A DNA stretch of 42,744 nucleotides from a virus. The position numbers and the translations under genes are program-made. Of this stretch, positions 3,656-42,744 are shown one piece after another. The notes beneath the pieces were generated by a model. It had not been told where the DNA came from. It saw only the letters and a program-made list of their open reading frames with translations, and made no database searches. Location: positions 1-42,744 of the IMG/VR virus record IMGVR_UViG_3300031746_000052; one strand, written 5' to 3'. Every line of letters starts with the position of its first letter. Positions within the stretch are counted from its first letter, which is position 1.

Positions 3656-3853
3656 ATGATAGAGAAGCACTGTAGCGATTGCGCCTTCTACGACCCATTC
3701 GGACTCAAGTGCCGCTTGACGGGGGACCACGAGTGGTCCACGAGCAGGGCCTGCGAGGCATATGAACCCATGTCCGATCACGCCATTGAGGACCTTCTCG
3801 ACAGCATCGAGCAGGATAACATCCTCCGTGACGCAACGTGGAGGCCCGAATGA
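3656..3853 (+). CDS. Small four-cysteine protein, possible zinc finger
   Basis: A 65-residue protein with C6-x2-C9-x9-C19-x13-C33 and an acidic helical tail (DHAIEDLLDSIEQD). The cysteine spacing resembles that of the minus-strand protein at 2048-2287 (x2, x9, then x17), suggesting a shared mini-fold. The stop overlaps the methyltransferase start as ATGA, so the pair is coupled. Function unknown; binding of nucleic acid or a partner protein is possible. Confidence 0.65.
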   Translation: MIEKHCSDCAFYDPFGLKCRLTGDHEWSTSRACEAYEPMSDHAIEDLLDSIEQDNILRDATWRPE

Positions 3854-4581
3854 GTAAACACGCCATTCTCTGTGGGGATTTCCTGAAAATACTCCCCACT
3901 CTACCTCCAGCCACGATGATCTTCGCTGATCCCCCCGACAACTTGGGTGTAGTCTATGATGGCGGTGTGTCGGATCAGCGTAACGACTATCTGCACTGGC
4001 TTCTCGAAGGGATAGCCACAGCAGCTTTGTTACATGATCCAAAGGTATTCTGGCTAAGCATAAACCATATTTACCTCTCGGATGTACTAAGGTGGTTCGG
4101 ATGCTGGAGATCGGATTCCCCCTCAGAGTGGCAGGTCCGTTTATTTCTGTGGCGGTTCACCTTCGGACAGCACCGGAACAGCGACTTCGGCAACGGCTAC
4201 CGTCCCATCCTACGCTTCTCTCGGCCTGGAACCGAGTGGTACACAGACAGTGTACGAGTGCCCTCCGCCCGGCAGACCAAGTACCACGACAAGCGGGCCT
4301 CTGCGGAGGGACGTGTTCCCGATGACGTGTGGGACTTCCCCCGCGTGTGCGGGACCTTCCACGAACGCCGTCCTTGGCACCCCAACCAACATCCGGAGGC
4401 CCTAATGGAGCGCATCATAAAGGTATCGTGCCGAGAGGGTGACGACTGCATCGACCTCTTTGGGGGAACCTTCACGACGGATCGCGTATGCCGTAGGCTC
4501 GGCGTATCCTGCACGAGCATCGAGATTTCCCCCGTGTACTGCCAGAAATACCAGGAAGAACTATCACATGCGACGACCTGA
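3850..4581 (+). CDS. DNA methyltransferase, beta class (N6-adenine or N4-cytosine), DPPD variant
   Basis: A 243-residue SAM-dependent DNA amino-methyltransferase. The catalytic motif comes first (ADPPDNLG, residues 26-33, where DPPY is usual) and the SAM-binding motif lies near the C-terminus (IDLFGGTFTT, 201-210), the beta-class order. Before it is HPNQHPEALMERII, matching the HPxQKPExLxxRII signature of this class. The Tyr-to-Asp change at the last position of the catalytic motif and FGGTF instead of FxGSG are notable; activity may be altered. I chose ATG 3850, with GGAGG at 3840-3844 and ATGA coupling to the previous gene, over a GTG at 3838. It could protect the phage from host restriction or tag DNA for packaging. 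No cognate nuclease is seen. Confidence 0.8.
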   Translation: MSKHAILCGDFLKILPTLPPATMIFADPPDNLGVVYDGGVSDQRNDYLHWLLEGIATAALLHDPKVFWLSINHIYLSDVLRWFGCWRSDSPSEWQVRLFLWRFTFGQHRNSDFGNGYRPILRFSRPGTEWYTDSVRVPSARQTKYHDKRASAEGRVPDDVWDFPRVCGTFHERRPWHPNQHPEALMERIIKVSCREGDDCIDLFGGTFTTDRVCRRLGVSCTSIEISPVYCQKYQEELSHATT

Positions 4582-4666: not shown

Positions 4667-5097
4667 GTCATGCACTCAAGACCTTTGATTTCGGATCGGG
4701 GGAGATAACGGAAGTCTCATATCTGGAAAAGGTGTTCGGGATCAAACGTCGGACGGCAATGGCCTATCTCAAAGCCCTCCATATCCAGCCCATCTTCATC
4801 GGAGCGGACGCATACTTCAGCCTCCCCACCCTCCGCAGAATCCTGTTCGTCCTGAGCCGTCCGGGGTCACCGGGATTTGTCATGCCCGGCTCCAAAAAGA
4901 AGAACGATCCCCGACTCAACAAGGGGGGCTACCTGACCGAAGTGACCGATGGGATTCTGGCGCAGGCGGCTGCCCCGGTCATCCTCGCGGAGATGGCTGG
5001 GGCGACGGGGCGGGACGTAGACCTCTTGAAGAAATTTATCGTCCCCTCCGCAGAGAAGAAATCCAAGAAACCAAAAGAGGAACCCGATGGAAAATGA
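4663..5097 (+). CDS. Helix-turn-helix DNA-binding protein, possible small terminase or regulator
   Basis: A 144-residue protein. Residues about 15-55 (VSYLEKVFGIKRRTAMAYLK...ADAYFSLPTLRRIL) look like an excisionase/MerR-style winged helix. The C-terminal part is helical with a Lys-rich tail. The GTG at 4663 is chosen because GGAGG (4650-4654) lies eight bases upstream and GTGA overlaps the previous stop. Lying two genes upstream of the terminase cluster, it could recognise packaging DNA, but an early regulator is as likely. A homing endonuclease gene now separates it from the rest of the cluster. Confidence 0.55.
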   Translation: MSHALKTFDFGSGEITEVSYLEKVFGIKRRTAMAYLKALHIQPIFIGADAYFSLPTLRRILFVLSRPGSPGFVMPGSKKKNDPRLNKGGYLTEVTDGILAQAAAPVILAEMAGATGRDVDLLKKFIVPSAEKKSKKPKEEPDGK

Positions 5098-5620
5098 AGT
5101 GAGACAAATTCCAAGATACCCCAATTACTGGGCTACGAGGTATGGTTCAATTCTTTCTCGTAAACGATTAAGAACGAAAGGAGGAATCCTACGTCCAACT
5201 ATAGAGACGGGAGGACATTTGCGTCTCTTGGTATGCGAAGACGGAAAGAAATATCACGAATTTGTCCATAGGCTGGTGCTGGAGGCGTTCGTGGGACCGT
5301 GCCCGGTGGGGATGGAGTGCAGACACCTGAATGGGAATCCCTCCGACAACCGATTGGAGAACTTGGCGTGGGGAACCAAATCGGAAAATGCCCAGGATGC
5401 GGTAAGACATGGAACATCCGCAGGATTCCAACTCAGAGGCAGAGTTGGTTTATCTGGGGAGAGAAATGGACAATCAAAGCTTATGGAGGAAAAAGTTCGG
5501 GTAATCAGATATCTTTTTAAGGCAGCCAAATTTAATCAAACAGAATTGGCTTGGCAATTCGATGTAAGCAAGACCACTATCAGAAGAGTAGTTATTGGTG
5601 AACGATGGGGCCACGTATGA
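5087..5620 (+). CDS. HNH homing endonuclease (NUMOD4 plus HNH plus C-terminal HTH)
   Basis: A free-standing homing endonuclease, 177 residues. Domain order: an N-terminal NUMOD4-like segment (IPRYPNYWATRYGSILS), the HNH core (HRLVLEAFVGPCP...CRHLNGNPSDNRLENLAWG) with His/Asn/His positions, then a C-terminal helix-turn-helix (NQTELAWQFDVSKTTIRRV) that probably reads DNA. It is closely related to the endonuclease at 37029-37562. It overlaps the upstream gene by 11 bases and the downstream one by an ATGA, so it sits neatly in the operon although it is a selfish element. Its base composition is more AT-rich than its neighbours, in line with acquisition. Confidence 0.85.
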   Translation: MENEVRQIPRYPNYWATRYGSILSRKRLRTKGGILRPTIETGGHLRLLVCEDGKKYHEFVHRLVLEAFVGPCPVGMECRHLNGNPSDNRLENLAWGTKSENAQDAVRHGTSAGFQLRGRVGLSGERNGQSKLMEEKVRVIRYLFKAAKFNQTELAWQFDVSKTTIRRVVIGERWGHV

Positions 5621-37028: not shown

Positions 37029-37562
37029 ATGACGATGAAACCCGTACCATATTGCCCCGGATATCAAGTAACCGATGATGGGCGTGTATGGTCCAATCCA
37101 AAACCAGGAAAAGGTTGGAGTAAACATGGACGTTGGTTGAGACTCCGCCACGATTCTTTTGGGTATAGGAGAGTACACCTATGCGCCGGGGAGAAAAGAT
37201 TTGAAAGACGAGTTCATGTGTTGGTGCTGGAGACATTCGTGGGTCCTTGTCCGGATGGGATGCAATGTAGACACTTGAACGGGGACCCAAGTGATAACCG
37301 ACTGGGGAACCTTAAATGGGGAACATGGAAAGAGAATGTCATGGATTCAGTAAGACATGGAACAAAGGTCAATCCTCCAATTGGCATAGGGGAAGATAAT
37401 CCTGCGGCAAAGCTGACGGAGAGAGACGTTAGGCTCATCGTCTACATGTGGAGGACCGGGGAGTTTACACGAAGGGAAATAGCAGAAAGCTATGGTATAA
37501 GTGTTGTCACAGTCGGGCAGATCGTGAATAGAAAGACATGGGGCTATTTGTGGGCAGCCTGA
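37029..37562 (+). CDS. HNH homing endonuclease next to the polymerase gene
   Basis: A 177-residue paralogue of the enzyme at 5087-5620. Shared core: HVLVLETFVGPCPDGMQCRHLNG-type HNH, with PSDNRLGNLKWGT and VRHGT; C-terminal helix-turn-helix (TRREIAESYGISVVTVGQI) for DNA reading. The N-terminal NUMOD4-like part is more diverged. Homing endonucleases commonly sit beside phage DNA polymerase genes, whose conserved sequence they cut in rivals. The start has no Shine-Dalgarno site and appears leaderless; ATG 37035 is an alternative. It overlaps the polymerase start by 25 bases. Confidence 0.85.
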   Translation: MTMKPVPYCPGYQVTDDGRVWSNPKPGKGWSKHGRWLRLRHDSFGYRRVHLCAGEKRFERRVHVLVLETFVGPCPDGMQCRHLNGDPSDNRLGNLKWGTWKENVMDSVRHGTKVNPPIGIGEDNPAAKLTERDVRLIVYMWRTGEFTRREIAESYGISVVTVGQIVNRKTWGYLWAA

Positions 37563-40135
37563 CGTTTGAATCACATTCAGATTGTAAACTATGCCCATTG
37601 TACCAATCGGCAAGGAATCCCGGACTACCCACAAGAAGTCTCTATGATGGACAACCACTACAAAAAAACGTAGCAATCTTATTTACCGGCCAAAGTCCGG
37701 GGCACCAAGAGGATATGAAAGGGAAGTCGTTCGTTGGATTCACCGGCCAGTTGTTGGAGAAGATGGTCCGGGCGTCGCGACTGACGGACTACGCTGACGT
37801 GTACTTGGTCAATTCCTGCCGGTGCAAACCCCCGCAGGGGGCGGACGAGTCACAGTCCAATATCCGGGCGTGCCTCCCGTACTTGCAAGAGGACGTAGCT
37901 ATACTTGGAGGAATGTATGAAGAGGTCGTTATCGTGGCGTTGGGAGCTAAGGCAGCCTATTCCGCCCTTCACCTGTCCTCATTGGGTGCGGCCCTCAAGA
38001 AGCAGGGTCAGAAGAGTGCTGTATTTGGTGGTAAGGTTCGTGTGTTTTGCACGTTCCATCCTGCTATGCTTCACCCATTGCGGGAGCCGGGGAAAATATT
38101 CGCCGTCGAAACCCATTTCTCGTTGATCCTTCGCTACCTCCGGGGGGAGTTAATCCCCAATGCGTTGCAGATTGATCCGGAGGTGGGGATTGATCCTCCG
38201 CAGGTTCTACCCCCGTTCGTCACAATGGACATCGAGACCTATGGAATCTTGGAGGGTAAGGAACAGACGGTGTTCCACCCGATCAAGTCGAAGGAGATCG
38301 ACGGGGTTCCGTTCGAGGACCAGATCGTCTCCGTAGCGTTTGGATGGAGGGATGGGGACAGACTGAGGACGGCGCAGTATGTGTGGTCTGAACCCCATCA
38401 CAAAGAGCAGATACGGGAATGGTTTTACCGGATTAACGAACAAAAGGTTGTGGTGGTTGGACAGAATATCAAGTTCGATCTCTTGTATTTGTACTTGTCA
38501 AAAGACCCAATACTTCCATTCCTGATTAACCAAAGACGAATAACTCTGGACGACACGTTGTTGTTGAGTTTCCTCCTCTATGAGCAGCAGCCGGAGAAGG
38601 GCCTCAAGGAATTGGCTACGCTATTCGGGATCGCGGACTATTCCGAAGTTAACGTAACCGGAAAGTCTGGTAATGCTAAGTCCTCGTGGGATAAGGACTT
38701 ACACTACTACAACTGCCTTGACGCGGCGGCTACCCTCGTCCTGTACGAGGAACTCCTGCGGAGGATCAAGGAACGATACGGCCCCGACTCTCCCAAGTTG
38801 AGCAAGACCTGCGCTTGGACTCGGAACATGATCCTGTGGGATACGTTCTACCTGGAAGAGACGGGTAGCTCATTTGACGTCGCCAAGCTACAGGCTTTCC
38901 ATGAGGAAGAGACCATCCGATGCCAAAATCTCTTGACCTCCGCAGAGACGGACCACGAGATCAAACTTTGCGGGACCGGATCAGATGCTCCCCTGAGACA
39001 ACTCCTACTCGACTGCCTGCGAGAAGCAGGGTTGTTGGAAGACAGCCGAGTGGAGTGGACGGGGAAGACAAAGAAGATTTCGATAGGGGTCGAGAACGTC
39101 AATCTCATCTTGGAACATATTCCGGAGGGAAAGAACAAGCAACTTATTGCGATGTTCCAGGACTACAAGGAACGATCCAAACTCGTTTCTACTTACACGG
39201 GTCCGCTCCTGATCGATCCTCGGAAGGGGATTATGCCACACACCGGGGACGTGGGGATGGTCTATCCGACGTGGTACGCAATTCCTATGTACTCGGAGCG
39301 GGGGGGAAGTTCGGATGTCAAGAGCGGGGGTCAGATTCAGGGACGGTTCTCGTGCAAGAAACCCGCCCGGCAGACGGAGCCACACAGCATACGTGATTGC
39401 TCGTGCTCCCGATGGCCGGGGGGGAAGATCGTTGAGTACGACGTGAACCAAGATCATCTACGGATGGCAGCGTTGCTGTCTGGCGACCCCCTGCTCATGG
39501 AAGCCTATACGAAAGAAGGGGAGAGCATCCATACTCGAACCGCCTTGACGCTGTTCCCCAACGAGAACCCGGTGGGGTTCAAGAAGCGGGAGCCGGTGAA
39601 GTACGCACTGGGGAAGACGCTCAATTTCCTCGTCCTGTTCCGTGGGGGGGCCGACGCCTTTCAGAGCACGGCCCGGAGAGACGCGGGAATCGAGGTCGAT
39701 ATTGAGTTCTGTGATCGGGCGATCAAGACGTGGTATGCCAAACACCACGTATACAAGGCGTGGCAAGATGAGATGATAGCCTTGGCCGGTAGACAGGGGT
39801 ATCTTGTTCTGCCCACCGGATGGTCCAGGACGTTCGGGGTCGGGTGTACGGCTGGAAAGGGGGGGGAAATATGCAACTTCCTCCACCAGACCCCCTGCGC
39901 CCAACTGCTGCACTCAGTCCAGTACCGGGCCCAAGCACGTTTCATGGAAGCAAACCTCCGCAGTGTGATATGCCTGCAAATCTACGACGCTCTGTTTGTG
40001 GACACTTACCCTGCGGAGGGAGAACGAGTGGACGCGATCATGGGCGACTGTATGAAACATCCCCCCCTGCTCGAAGTGTTTTCGAGGTGGGTGGGAAGAA
40101 CAGTGCCGTGGGATTATGAAAGGAAAGAGACATGA
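37538..40135 (+). CDS. Uracil-DNA glycosylase / family A DNA polymerase fusion
   Basis: An 865-residue replicative polymerase. Residues 1-205 are a family 4/5-type uracil-DNA glycosylase domain: Cys at 16, 19, 94/96 and 112 placed to hold a 4Fe-4S cluster, GQSPGHQED at 51-59, FVGFTGQLLEKM, and the HPAMLHP loop at 174-180. Residues 228-405 are a 3'-5' exonuclease: DIE (231-233), GQNIKFD (308-314), YYNCLDAA (390-397). The rest is a PolA palm-fingers domain: motif A DVNQDHLR (635-642), where His640 replaces the usual steric-gate Glu; fingers KTLNF (693-697); motif C QIYDALF, YDA in place of HDE, with D817 kept. SPO1-like phages are known to carry similar fusions. Six iterated-motif copies or variants lie in the gene. 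Confidence 0.9.
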   Translation: MGLFVGSLTFESHSDCKLCPLYQSARNPGLPTRSLYDGQPLQKNVAILFTGQSPGHQEDMKGKSFVGFTGQLLEKMVRASRLTDYADVYLVNSCRCKPPQGADESQSNIRACLPYLQEDVAILGGMYEEVVIVALGAKAAYSALHLSSLGAALKKQGQKSAVFGGKVRVFCTFHPAMLHPLREPGKIFAVETHFSLILRYLRGELIPNALQIDPEVGIDPPQVLPPFVTMDIETYGILEGKEQTVFHPIKSKEIDGVPFEDQIVSVAFGWRDGDRLRTAQYVWSEPHHKEQIREWFYRINEQKVVVVGQNIKFDLLYLYLSKDPILPFLINQRRITLDDTLLLSFLLYEQQPEKGLKELATLFGIADYSEVNVTGKSGNAKSSWDKDLHYYNCLDAAATLVLYEELLRRIKERYGPDSPKLSKTCAWTRNMILWDTFYLEETGSSFDVAKLQAFHEEETIRCQNLLTSAETDHEIKLCGTGSDAPLRQLLLDCLREAGLLEDSRVEWTGKTKKISIGVENVNLILEHIPEGKNKQLIAMFQDYKERSKLVSTYTGPLLIDPRKGIMPHTGDVGMVYPTWYAIPMYSERGGSSDVKSGGQIQGRFSCKKPARQTEPHSIRDCSCSRWPGGKIVEYDVNQDHLRMAALLSGDPLLMEAYTKEGESIHTRTALTLFPNENPVGFKKREPVKYALGKTLNFLVLFRGGADAFQSTARRDAGIEVDIEFCDRAIKTWYAKHHVYKAWQDEMIALAGRQGYLVLPTGWSRTFGVGCTAGKGGEICNFLHQTPCAQLLHSVQYRAQARFMEANLRSVICLQIYDALFVDTYPAEGERVDAIMGDCMKHPPLLEVFSRWVGRTVPWDYERKET

Positions 40136-40677
40136 TTCCATTCCCGGACAGGAAATACACTGTGATCTATGCTGATCCCCCGTGGAACGGATTGGGGTGG
40201 AATAACGGTAGTGGGCTGAAATGCCCGGCGAATCACTACGAAGTACAGGATGAAGAATGGATACAGAAGCTACCAGTGCCTTCCTTGTCGGAAGAAACAT
40301 GTTTTCTGTTTTTATGGGTGACGTTTCCCAATCTTCCTTCTGGATTAAAGGTAATTGACGCTTGGGGATTCAAGTATGCTACTTGCGCCTTTACATGGAT
40401 CAAGAGGAATAGGGTATCGGACTCCTACTTCGTAGGGTGCGGGAACTACACAAGGGCCAACTCGGAGATTTGTCTGTTGGGGACGAAAGGACATTGCCAG
40501 ACGTTGAGAAAGAGTAGAAGTGTTCTACAAGTTTGTGACGCTCGAATTGGAAGACATTCGGAGAAGCCTTCGGAGATTCGAGATAGAATAGTTCAACTCT
40601 GCGGAGACGTTTCTCGAATAGAGTTGTTTGCACGAACGAAAACAGAAGGATGGGACGTATGGGGGAATGACGTATGA
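40132..40677 (+). CDS. MT-A70 family N6-adenine methyltransferase
   Basis: A 181-residue methyltransferase. ADPPWNG at 14-20 is the catalytic DPPW of the MT-A70 group; further on, GNYTRANSEICLLGTKG, RHSEKPSEIRDRI and ELFARTKTEGWDVWGNDV are the family signatures for SAM binding and the C-terminal strand. It should methylate adenine in DNA. The start overlaps the polymerase stop as ATGA, so it is made with the replication proteins and could mark nascent phage DNA. One iterated-motif copy at 40599. Confidence 0.9.
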   Translation: MIPFPDRKYTVIYADPPWNGLGWNNGSGLKCPANHYEVQDEEWIQKLPVPSLSEETCFLFLWVTFPNLPSGLKVIDAWGFKYATCAFTWIKRNRVSDSYFVGCGNYTRANSEICLLGTKGHCQTLRKSRSVLQVCDARIGRHSEKPSEIRDRIVQLCGDVSRIELFARTKTEGWDVWGNDV

Positions 40678-41255
40678 CCAACAATGATGTGTTCTATAGG
40701 TATGCGATTCCGCAGGGGATCACGGTGCAGATCGACACGAGGGAACAGTGCCCAATTCTGTTCCCGGCAACCATCAGGATTGCCCACCCAGAGTTGACGT
40801 TCAAGGAGTTGGTGATCCCCGTCAAGGAGGAACGGATCGCGCTTCCGTTTGGGGACTACCGGCTGGTGGAGTACCCAGACCTGTGCGTGTTCGAGAGGAA
40901 AGCGACCCAACTGGAAATCTTCAAGAACCTGAACGATACCCATGACCGGGTGAGGCAGGCCAAGGCGTTTCGGAAGCTGTCGTGTGGGTGCAAGTTCCCG
41001 TACCTGCTGGTGGAGGCGTCCCCCGTGGAGTTGCTGGCGGACGACCCCCGTATCAAGCAGCCGGAGTTCGTGTGCCACCGGCTGGCGATGGCAATGGCCA
41101 AGTACGGATTCCATACGATCTTCCTCCCGTGGAAGTCCCGTAGCCCCGACGTGCGGAGGAAGGTGGGGACCCTCATGCTCCATATAATGCTGGCTTGTGC
41201 GCTGACGGATGTATTCGATGTTCCCCCGGTGTTGCTGGATGGGGGCAATGAATGA
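40674..41255 (+). CDS. ERCC4-type (XPF/Mus81-like) nuclease
   Basis: A 193-residue nuclease-domain protein. D21 in IDTREQCP, GDYRL at 60-64 and ERK at 74-76 (CVFERKATQLEI) form the G-D-x(n)-E-R-K active site of ERCC4 nucleases, which cut branched DNA. Residues 85-195 are helical and hold the conserved DTHDRVRQAKAFRKL and LVEAS segments. No HhH domains follow, so this is the catalytic domain alone. It is coupled to the methyltransferase by ATGA. Likely acts on recombination or replication intermediates, perhaps before packaging. Confidence 0.85.
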   Translation: MTNNDVFYRYAIPQGITVQIDTREQCPILFPATIRIAHPELTFKELVIPVKEERIALPFGDYRLVEYPDLCVFERKATQLEIFKNLNDTHDRVRQAKAFRKLSCGCKFPYLLVEASPVELLADDPRIKQPEFVCHRLAMAMAKYGFHTIFLPWKSRSPDVRRKVGTLMLHIMLACALTDVFDVPPVLLDGGNE

Positions 41256-41416
41256 GACCAGAGAAGGAAATCATGGAAGAATTGGAAGCTACCCGTGCCG
41301 ATATGCCAAAGACGGATTCGACCAGTGATATCTATACGCGGATCAAGTTACGATGCTATGCGTTGGCACTTCAATGGGTCCTGGACGAGGACGAAAAAAA
41401 TGTTGAGAAATCGTGA
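41252..41416 (+). CDS. Small charged helical protein, 54 aa
   Basis: Begins MRPEKEIMEELEATRADMP and continues as a helix (IYTRIKLRCYALALQWVLDEDEKN). It overlaps the nuclease stop as ATGA, so it should be translated with it. It is the last gene before the candidate RNA. Function unknown; a small partner of the nuclease is possible. Confidence 0.5.
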   Translation: MRPEKEIMEELEATRADMPKTDSTSDIYTRIKLRCYALALQWVLDEDEKNVEKS

Positions 41417-41423
41417 TTTTCCC

Positions 41424-41452
41424 TTGACCTATGGTAGCAAATCGGATACAAT
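41424..41452 (+). promoter_or_regulatory. Sigma-70 promoter of the candidate small RNA
   Basis: TTGACC (41424-41429), 17 bases, TACAAT (41447-41452). The predicted start, seven bases downstream at 41459, is the first base of the RNA closing stem. Confidence 0.75.
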
Positions 41453-41458
41453 ACAGTT

Positions 41459-41589
41459 GTGGGTGTTGCACAACAAGTCCTGTTGGACCCACGGAAACGT
41501 AAAGAGTTGGCTCGCAACACCCACCAGATTTGACCTCCGCAGAGTCGGGCGGGTCGTTGGCAGTGTCTTCGATCCGCCCGCTCGTTTTT
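41459..41589 (+). ncRNA. Candidate structured small RNA with own promoter and terminator
   Basis: About 131 nt without a gene. The 5' end GTGGGTGTTGC (41459-41469) pairs perfectly with GCAACACCCAC (41514-41524), an 11-bp closing stem. Inside it are GTCC-TGTT-GGAC (alternatively CAACA/TGTTG) and an ACG-GAAA-CGT hairpin with a GNRA tetraloop. A linker (41525-41545) carries ACCTCCGCAGAG, an exact iterated-motif copy that should be single stranded. A terminator hairpin follows. It might be a trans-acting RNA, a ribosome-directed decoy (CCUCC matches the anti-Shine-Dalgarno core) or a leader for 41608. I do not recognise a known RNA class. Confidence 0.6.
41546..41589 (+). terminator. Intrinsic terminator of the candidate RNA
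   Basis: CGGGCGGGTCG (41546-41556) pairs with CGATCCGCCCG (41570-41580), 11 bp with one G-U pair, 13-base loop, followed by CTCG and five T. Confidence 0.8.
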
Positions 41590-41607
41590 CTTAACCAGAG
41601 AGAACCA

Positions 41608-41748
41608 ATGACTGACGATAGAACATGGCGAAGACTTATCGACCTAGAAGCCAAGGTTATAGTCCAACAAGAGACTATAGCGAAACTGGAGGAGCGGATA
41701 GAGGCCCTGGAAATTCAAACACAGAGTGGGAGATTTGAACCACAATGA
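41608..41748 (+). CDS. Short coiled-coil protein, 46 aa
   Basis: Heptad-like helix LIDLEAKVIVQQETIAKLEERIEALE fills most of the protein, so it probably forms a dimer or trimer. ATG 41608 follows AGAGAG. Its stop overlaps the next start by ATGA. Similar short coiled coils are frequent in phage accessory operons; function unknown. Confidence 0.55.
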   Translation: MTDDRTWRRLIDLEAKVIVQQETIAKLEERIEALEIQTQSGRFEPQ

Positions 41749-42077
41749 TTGATCCAAACAAGGGCGTGAGCACAGAGAAGTTGGAACTCCTGCGGCAAGA
41801 GTCGTATGAGAGAATGTGTACCCAACTCAAGACGGCCATTGAACAGAAGCTCACCGACTTTCAGATGACATGGGATGACCTTGCCAATTGTGTACATTGG
41901 GAGGATGTCTACTGTGCTCCTGGGGAAGACCATATTTCTGGACTTGAGGTTAAGGGATTGATCGGCGATTGTGGGGGGGGAAGAGTAACTCTGAGTGGGT
42001 TGAATGACATTGCCCATTCATTCTCTGCGGAGGTGTACGTTATCTTCCGTCCGAGATATCCGTGGATAGCTACGTAG
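41745..42077 (+). CDS. Hypothetical protein, 110 aa
   Basis: An N-terminal helix (ESYERMCTQLKTAIEQKLTDF) followed by a beta domain with NCVHWEDVYCAPGEDHISG and a Gly-rich turn (GDCGGGRV), ending VYVIFRPRYPW. The start is coupled to the previous stop. One iterated-motif copy at 42025 lies in the beta part. No family recognised. Confidence 0.6.
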   Translation: MIDPNKGVSTEKLELLRQESYERMCTQLKTAIEQKLTDFQMTWDDLANCVHWEDVYCAPGEDHISGLEVKGLIGDCGGGRVTLSGLNDIAHSFSAEVYVIFRPRYPWIAT

Positions 42078-42086
42078 GAGAGATCA

Positions 42087-42290
42087 ATGAAACAAGAGCA
42101 AATGTTCAAAATTGTCGAAGACCTGTTTACTCTTAGCGAGTACCGACGATGCTTCTACTATGATGACGGGGATTGTGCCCCTTGGAAACAGTGTTCGGAA
42201 TTGTTTCCTTCCTGCCCCATCGTTCTGCTTGCAATTGAGGCAGGTTACCCCATGACGTTGGAGGATGATAATGGACCTGACCAAGCTTGA
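42087..42290 (+). CDS. Small acidic Cys-containing protein, 67 aa
   Basis: It carries Tyr/Asp-rich YRRCFYYDDGDCAPWKQC and a second Cys pair, so metal binding or disulfides are possible. GGAG lies before the ATG. It overlaps the nuclease start by 20 bases. Function unknown. Confidence 0.55.
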   Translation: MKQEQMFKIVEDLFTLSEYRRCFYYDDGDCAPWKQCSELFPSCPIVLLAIEAGYPMTLEDDNGPDQA

Positions 42291-42744
42291 ACCTATTCCG
42301 GTGGTGTGCAGCCAATCGAAGTTGGCGTGTGCCTTGGCGTGCAAGCGCAAGTGGTGGTGCAAATACCGCATGGGGATCGAGTTGCGGGGCACGGAGCGAA
42401 AGGATGCCGCTACGCTCGGTACGATCTACCATCGGTTGCAATGTCTGGGGCCGGGCAGCGAGATGACGGTGATGGCCGAGGTACAGAAGCAGCAGACGGC
42501 CCTAATGGATCGGGTAAACAAGGGGGAGGACCTCGACGGGAACACGGCTCGTCAGGCTGGGATGCTGACCGAGTTGTATAATAAGGCCGTCGCCATGTCC
42601 CAAATCTTCTGGGAACGATTCCCTCAACCCCTCTACTTCGAGACTCAGTGGGTGGAGACAAAATTGCAAGTTCATTTTCAAAGTTGGCCCTTCCTATTCG
42701 AGGGGACGGTCGATAAAATCCTACGTGATACATCGACGACTGAA
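42271..42744 (+). CDS. PD-(D/E)XK nuclease (RecB/Cas4-like exonuclease), 3' truncated
   Basis: The first 158 residues of a nuclease that runs off the right edge. The N-terminus (SQSKLACALACKRKWWCKYRMGIE) and LGTIYHRLQ match the start of RecB-family/PDDEXK_1 nucleases, in which the His of the helix precedes the core; FEGTVDKILRD holds the first catalytic Asp (G-x-V-D). The later E-x-K motif would lie beyond the window. Early Cys residues might pair with C-terminal Cys for an Fe-S cluster, as in Cas4/AddB types, but that cannot be seen here. Likely works with the ERCC4 nuclease in recombination. Confidence 0.75.
   Translation, partial: MDLTKLEPIPVVCSQSKLACALACKRKWWCKYRMGIELRGTERKDAATLGTIYHRLQCLGPGSEMTVMAEVQKQQTALMDRVNKGEDLDGNTARQAGMLTELYNKAVAMSQIFWERFPQPLYFETQWVETKLQVHFQSWPFLFEGTVDKILRDTSTTE

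Follow-up and report, generated by a model that had tools for sequence, protein, structure and literature searches.

The window, by which we mean the whole stretch of DNA analysed here (42,744 bases, an IMG/VR virus record), holds near its end a compact unit that runs from a promoter to a terminator at 41424-41589. The features of this region, and the repeat to which it relates, are as follows.

37538..40135, + strand: UDG-fused DNA polymerase (family A), used as marker for this group of phages
40674..41255, + strand: ERCC4-type nuclease gene, the usual 5' neighbour of the unit (Pfam ERCC4, phrog_3490, synteny)
41424-41429 (-35) and 41447-41452 (-10), + strand: sigma-70-type promoter TTGACC-17-TACAAT, 10 of 12 consensus matches
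41459..41469, + strand: 5' strand of helix P1 (11 bp), from fold and covariation
41471..41474, + strand: 5' strand of helix P2, CAAC, from covariation; absent from the window's single-sequence MFE fold
41500..41505, + strand: conserved UAAAGA in the P2 loop, directly 5' of the P2 3' strand
41506..41509, + strand: 3' strand of P2, GUUG, from covariation
41514..41524, + strand: 3' strand of P1 (11 bp), from fold and covariation
41534..41544, + strand: CCUCCGCAGAG, RNA copy of the genome-wide repeat and candidate guide-like element
41542..41583, + strand: terminator hairpin with a UU/UU internal loop and a 3-bp upper stem
41585..41589, + strand: T-run
42265..42744, + strand: PD-(D/E)XK exonuclease gene, cut by the contig end
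491..42032, 22 on the + and 24 on the - strand: CTCCGCAG, dispersed in 46 copies including the one in the RNA

The nuclease gene matches Pfam ERCC4 at E 7e-4, which is under the Pfam cut-off, and phrog_3490 at E 1e-5. Together with the UDG-polymerase, the PD-(D/E)XK exonuclease and a Sak4-like ATPase, it is conserved alongside the system as a recombination/replication module, and the RecB-like PD-(D/E)XK exonuclease and Sak4 occur in essentially all of these phages. Elsewhere in the window there are two DNA methyltransferase genes (40132-40677, MT-A70-type, and 3838-4581) and two HNH-endonuclease-like genes (5087-5620 and 37029-37562, the second NUMOD4/HNH_3), which are 73% identical in DNA over 146 bases and are probably homing endonucleases. 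In the relative G016, a weak JAB-domain match lies beside a ThiF-family gene (L215 8721-10491), a pair in the style of ubiquitin-like conjugation.

A preliminary description had proposed an independently transcribed, structured small RNA at this place, and its outline holds: the promoter with a 17-nt spacer is present and kept in most homologues, the predicted start (41459, 7 nt past the -10 element) falls on base 1 of a perfect 11-bp stem, the strong terminator is formed by the hairpin and the T-run listed above, and no gene lies inside the unit. On both strands of 40500-42744, TTGACC-17-TACAAT is the sole promoter-like site; shuffled sequences yield 1.8 such sites on average, and the consensus scan by itself is not significant. 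The terminator match by itself is likewise no better than chance. Because both matches alone are within chance, the case for the unit rests on its homologues. The folding energy of the unit is unusually low (MFE -65.6 kcal/mol, z = -4.46, 0 of 200 shuffles as low), and in this fold the CCUCCGCAGAG element is single-stranded up to its GCA. Internal hairpins, which had also been pointed out, do occur in the window (GAAA, 41491-41500; UGUU, 41477-41488) but are not conserved in homologues, and we dropped the GNRA and UGUU hairpins as conserved elements, since they are window-specific. What that description lacked are the covarying P2 helix, the ACCTCCGCAGAG motif and the match of this motif to a genome-wide repeat. 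With Rfam 15, the whole window returned zero families at the gathering score, and at a permissive threshold the region of the unit gave a chance snoRNA match at E 1.3 and nothing else; a BLAST search of the unit's RNA against phage records gave no useful match.

Relatives gathered by profile searches with the nuclease and the polymerase provided about 15 distinct syntenic homologues with a common architecture, in which promoter (mostly TTGACA/TTGACT-16/17-TATAAT), stem architecture and terminator are retained at the syntenic place while the letters differ. L004, at about 63% protein identity, has its unit in the corresponding position behind the ERCC4-type nuclease gene, with a perfect TTGACA-17-TATAAT promoter, stem letters that are entirely different and the terminator layout of the window. 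Its polymerase (L004 2-1927) is about 22 residues shorter than the window's just before NQDH, by assembly or by a real deletion. Single-sequence folds give back the architecture in nearly all homologues. We aligned 11 distinct RNAs, in which TAAAG is invariant, and later added L007, L044, G015 and a shorter second copy from G008. P2 occurs as CAAC/GUUG, CGAC/GUCG, AGAUU/AAUCU, CAAUU/AAUUG and AAGUUU/AAACUU, with 49 of 55 positions paired, whereas shuffled partners reach 34 on average (none of 20,000 shuffles got as high; with similar sequences collapsed, 4 of 40,000 did), and the GAG/CUC base of the terminator hairpin covaries with GGA/UCC. In an alignment of nine sequences that excludes the window, two-sided changes are seen in 22 of 28 pairs and the covariation score is 0.695, versus 0.257 in shuffles (0 of 500); sliding the pairing by 1-3 columns makes the covariation collapse. 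A covariance model built from these nine sequences detects the window at 50.8 bits (E 2.8e-7) and picks up the units of sister lineages weakly. A covariance search was among the checks that the preliminary description had named, and it came out in favour of the RNA. The homologues thus share a conserved secondary structure with two-sided changes, as is expected of a new RNA family; covariation and model detection, with no Rfam family matching, support an undescribed structured small RNA as its own transcription unit, and the RNA gene is therefore real at the sequence level. The locus is accordingly best described as a phage small-RNA gene with a predicted RNA of about 131 nt, from promoter to terminator.

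The 11-bp stem, whose retention in homologues the preliminary description had made its test, fared less uniformly. It is present with compensatory changes in most homologues and absent from L022 and all sister lineages, which keep the motif and the hairpin, and usually the promoter too. The stem is hence an accessory, and the comparison identifies P1/P2 as a clade-specific accessory domain, with the short motif and the hairpin as the core. The L022 locus (4244-4364) has promoter, word and terminator hairpin without P1/P2, which could be a natural deletion or the ancestral state.

Conservation within the RNA is highest in ACCTCCGCAGAG, between the P1 stem and the terminator. In homologues this motif reads ACCUCCGCAGR before the terminator hairpin, and ACCUCCGCAGR is the genome-wide repeat of the window phage: CTCCGCAG has 46 copies in the window versus 1.3 expected from dinucleotides, a C stands before 43 of them, and the flanks are random. 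Relatives with this RNA have it at similar density, and it is nearly missing in more distant polymerase relatives. The sites lie in coding and non-coding DNA, in sense and antisense orientation and in all codon phases; a protein-coding origin of the repeat was ruled out by its occurrence on both strands and in all frames. Spacing is irregular, averaging 0.7-2.9 kb, with a density of about one copy per 1-2 kb, and conservation ends abruptly at 9-14 positions. Three inverted pairs of the word lie 33-43 bases apart (8701/8734, 13612/13646 and 28538/28581), two of them apparently intergenic.

Comparisons between genomes show strong selection on the individual sites. Where nucleotide identity is 64-72%, 47% of them are exactly kept versus 5.7% of composition-matched 8-mers, and at 72-80% identity the values are 72% versus 12.6%. 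Between dialects, a foreign word is almost never retained at homologous sites, some of which carry the word of the other lineage instead (8 of 22 and 8 of 16 for K/L, 6 of 21 for D/A; also 5 of 40). Judged from these alignments, the selected sites switch with the lineage.

Such lineage-specific words extend well beyond the clade of the window. Most of 30 phages with the UDG-fused DNA polymerase have a repeat of their own, 9-14 letters long and present in 20 to 60 copies a genome:

CCTCTGCAG: G016, G022
GCCCCGCAG: G017
CCCCTGCAG: G018, G029
CCCCTGCAA: G019
GAGTTGGACAGG: G020, G032
GTGGTCCCAGG: G021, G023
GACGGGGGACGGGG: G025
CACTCCGGGCTCC: G028
GCAGAGACAGG: G030
ACCGGGAGAG: G031, G037
ATCGGGAGAGAG: G033
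CGGGAACGAG: G046
CCCAGTGACG: G036

At least one copy of the word stands directly 5' of a compact hairpin in 27 of 28 repeat-bearing contigs, usually with a promoter and a T-run, and in most lineages this unit often follows soon after the nuclease gene. The hairpin has a recurrent layout, with a GC stem at its base, then a small internal loop that is frequently UU/UU, and a short stem on top. In nearly all distant relatives with a word of their own, the hairpin-bearing copy is in a fixed orientation with the hairpin within a few bases, and most genomes have just one or two such copies, in one orientation; several copies pass the hairpin filter in the GC-rich G000, G025 and G030, and G034 is weak. 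Second word-plus-hairpin units occur in some phages (L199 19391-19485, - strand; G033 and G037). Across 27 contigs, the 9-mer of the own lineage averages 27.7 copies versus 0.43 for the words of other lineages. In a cross-test, the word-plus-hairpin unit was found with the own word in 27 of 27 genomes and with foreign words in 3 of 351, for a set that was picked after G036, G024 and G035 had shown no unit, with G036 left out, and with own words that have more chances to meet a hairpin because they were chosen for abundance. The linear record of G036 (L263-L265) yielded no unit despite 54 copies of a very strong dispersed CCCAGTGACG (strands 19/35), and G024 and G035 have neither a word above background nor a unit. 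Serratia phage Serbin and MW202455 (isolated or complete) share the UDG-polymerase and PD-(D/E)XK genes and show no dominating word, and can therefore be used as negative controls.

Outside the clade of the window, the word begins 4-19 nt past the -10 element where a promoter is recognised; the predicted RNA would therefore be about 55-60 nt long and carry a single hairpin, the word lying close to the 5' end. In the window's clade, P1/P2 sits between start and word, which lies 72-112 nt past the -10 element. The invariant pairing is thus word and hairpin, not word and promoter: since the hairpin stays within a few nt while the promoter distance ranges over 4-112 nt and the T-run is sometimes absent (the L034, L043 and L046 units are without a good one), word and hairpin appear to be tied at the RNA level.

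These units also bear on a more conventional explanation, in which the unit is a leader or attenuator whose promoter and terminator govern the early operon downstream, with P1/P2 as an antitermination or sensing element. The lambda 6S RNA/tR' leader and the HK022 put RNA combine a phage promoter, a short structured RNA and an intrinsic terminator before an operon. The unit is like them in that some 20 nt separate its terminator from the next gene downstream, the genes all lie on one strand and a structured leader precedes the terminator; those RNAs, however, are not known to be tied to a genome-wide repeat. A leader would leave unexplained why the genome's own dispersed word stands in it in all lineages and why minimal units without P1/P2 exist, and the downstream genes differ among relatives. 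We consider this explanation improbable. Still less credit can be given to an ordinary trans-acting small RNA with a C-rich seed that pairs with mRNAs, as the preliminary description implied. CCUCCGCA is single-stranded in nearly all folds and resembles a seed that pairs with Shine-Dalgarno sequences, but the elements of other lineages are G-rich or unrelated (GAGUUGGACAGG, GACGGGGGACGGGG), and the sites are equally sense and antisense, within genes and in every frame. Anti-Shine-Dalgarno pairing was ruled out, the other dialects being unlike anti-SD sequences, and a role of this kind appears highly improbable.

From lineage to lineage, as far as the compared genomes tell, the RNA's copy of the word changes in step with the genomic copies. 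Within the window's clade, the base two past CAG in the genome tends to match that of the RNA (G in G000, A in G009, G011 and G014, T in G015), with exceptions: RNA and genome differ at this position in G006, G008, L010, L023 and L029, the RNA of L038 deviates by one base, and L018/L033 have CAAGG in the RNA where the genome has CAG at 17 of 21 sites. The first unit of G008 reads CAGGA and the second CAGAG, and the genomic sites lean to the second (G 33/66).

A word of this kind might equally be read by a phage DNA-binding protein, such as a stoperator-like repressor or a nucleoid or segregation factor; an early promoter would then have the copy in the promoter-terminator unit as its operator, and the RNA would be incidental. 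Cluster A mycobacteriophages possess 20-30 asymmetric 13-14-bp stoperators, dispersed over the genome and coevolving with the lineage, one of them at the early promoter (PMC6550527, PMC9283540). The words described here share asymmetry, dispersal and lineage-wise coevolution with these sites; a DNA-binding protein would likewise give dispersed, lineage-specific, selected sites, and the distance from the -10 element to the word is 4-19 nt in many lineages. Stoperators, however, are mostly oriented with transcription (PMC6550527) and are read by a repressor protein in temperate phages, with no structured RNA, whereas the phage words are about equal on both strands (22/24, 28/38, 24/23), within genes and in all frames. 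No tyrosine integrase was found in the 27 contigs, the word of the window's clade abuts the hairpin at 72-112 nt from the -10 element, and covariation extends across the whole RNA. A protein-read word is the main rival, and an unlikely one; it is weakened by site orientation, the hairpin tie and RNA covariation.

The dispersed sites could also act as a Chi-like or uptake-like DNA signal, which would control a recombination or degradation enzyme of phage or host and spare phage DNA, the copy beside the hairpin being merely one such site at a terminator. The DUS dialects of Neisseriaceae, words of 10-12 bp with very many copies on both strands and in genes, change with phylogeny (PMC3630211) and in this resemble the phage words, which, as with DUS and Chi, are selected, form dialects and occur roughly once per kb. 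The conserved RecB-like exonuclease and Sak4 would fit such a signal, and DUS are associated with terminators. DUS, however, occur in bacterial chromosomes, where the pilin ComP reads them at DNA uptake (PMC3630211), and no DUS RNA gene is known that bears the word beside a non-word hairpin. DUS terminators are inverted word pairs, while the hairpin here is not built from the word, and the inverted pairs in the phages are few and mostly not terminators. In most genomes the hairpin accompanies just one or two copies, in one orientation, and the unit has a promoter to itself and a conserved RNA. When bacterial genomes were scanned with the inverted pair, there were, among the matches listed, scattered ordinary ones (Calothrix brevissima and Rikenellaceae SIG168 with at least three each) and no word-rich host, and a polymerase scan of genome contigs for a host found no relative. 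By analogy, Chi or DUS would account for the sites, not for the RNA, and we regard a signal of this type as distinctly unlikely.

The simplest account of a conserved RNA structure next to an element that equals selected, strand- and frame-independent sites is a guide to the phage's own DNA, and the joint change of word and RNA in distant relatives suggests an undescribed guide-like RNA for own-DNA recognition. Sites in either orientation, in all phases and in coding and non-coding DNA fit the expectation for double-stranded DNA targets; the element matches these sites and changes with them, as would be expected of RNA-guided DNA targeting. The RNA's element would pair with the complementary strand of the dispersed sites, by R-loop formation or annealing to single-stranded DNA, and the 3' hairpin would bind a phage protein. 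The resulting complex may mark or handle the phage's own DNA in replication, in recombination or in sparing it from degradation, with the ERCC4-type nuclease, the PD-(D/E)XK exonuclease, the Sak4-like ATPase and the UDG-polymerase as candidate effectors, none of which is directly implicated. In the window's clade, the P1/P2 domain would have been inserted 5' of the guide. We put the chance that a guide-like RNA directs a phage protein to the phage's own DNA slightly below even. Against it count the guide length of just 9-14 nt, the mismatches between RNA and consensus, the G036 repeat without a unit, and the lack of any known guide-RNA protein family: a Nop-domain protein, a TnpB/Cas12f-like nuclease and a reverse transcriptase, which TIGR-Tas, OMEGA/TnpB and retron or DGR systems respectively would need, were each found in 0 of 27 contigs.

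Among known systems, TIGR-Tas, with 9-nt spacers in TIGR and RNA-guided DNA binding (PMC12045711), offers a likeness in a phage-borne small RNA that has a short guide beside a compact structure and is aimed at DNA. The phages studied here differ in that there is a single putative guide instead of an array, no Nop/Tas, TnpB or RT protein was found, and the tens of sites that would be targeted belong to the phage itself. In the open-access literature searched, we found no account of such a pairing of RNA and repeat. We regard the system as new at the level of its architecture, an RNA plus a dialect word, and give the putative guide mechanism the just-below-even chance stated above. The preliminary reading is partly supported and was too modest.

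Among the described systems that we found, none matches a short RNA that shares its word with tens of selected DNA sites of the same genome and evolves along with them over deep phage divergence. Even if a protein reads it, a word that is lineage-specific, strongly selected and spread genome-wide across a large set of uncultured phages is new, and direct predictions follow from it. Tentatively, and as a prospect somewhat short of even, a minimal guide RNA together with a phage protein may recognise the phage's own genome through an RNA-programmed code that exists in lineage dialects, with evolution rewriting guide and targets jointly. If the guide reading is true, this would be a new form of RNA-guided DNA recognition, with a very compact guide RNA, that is aimed at self, not at invaders, and it would provide a testable answer to the question of how some phages mark their own DNA.
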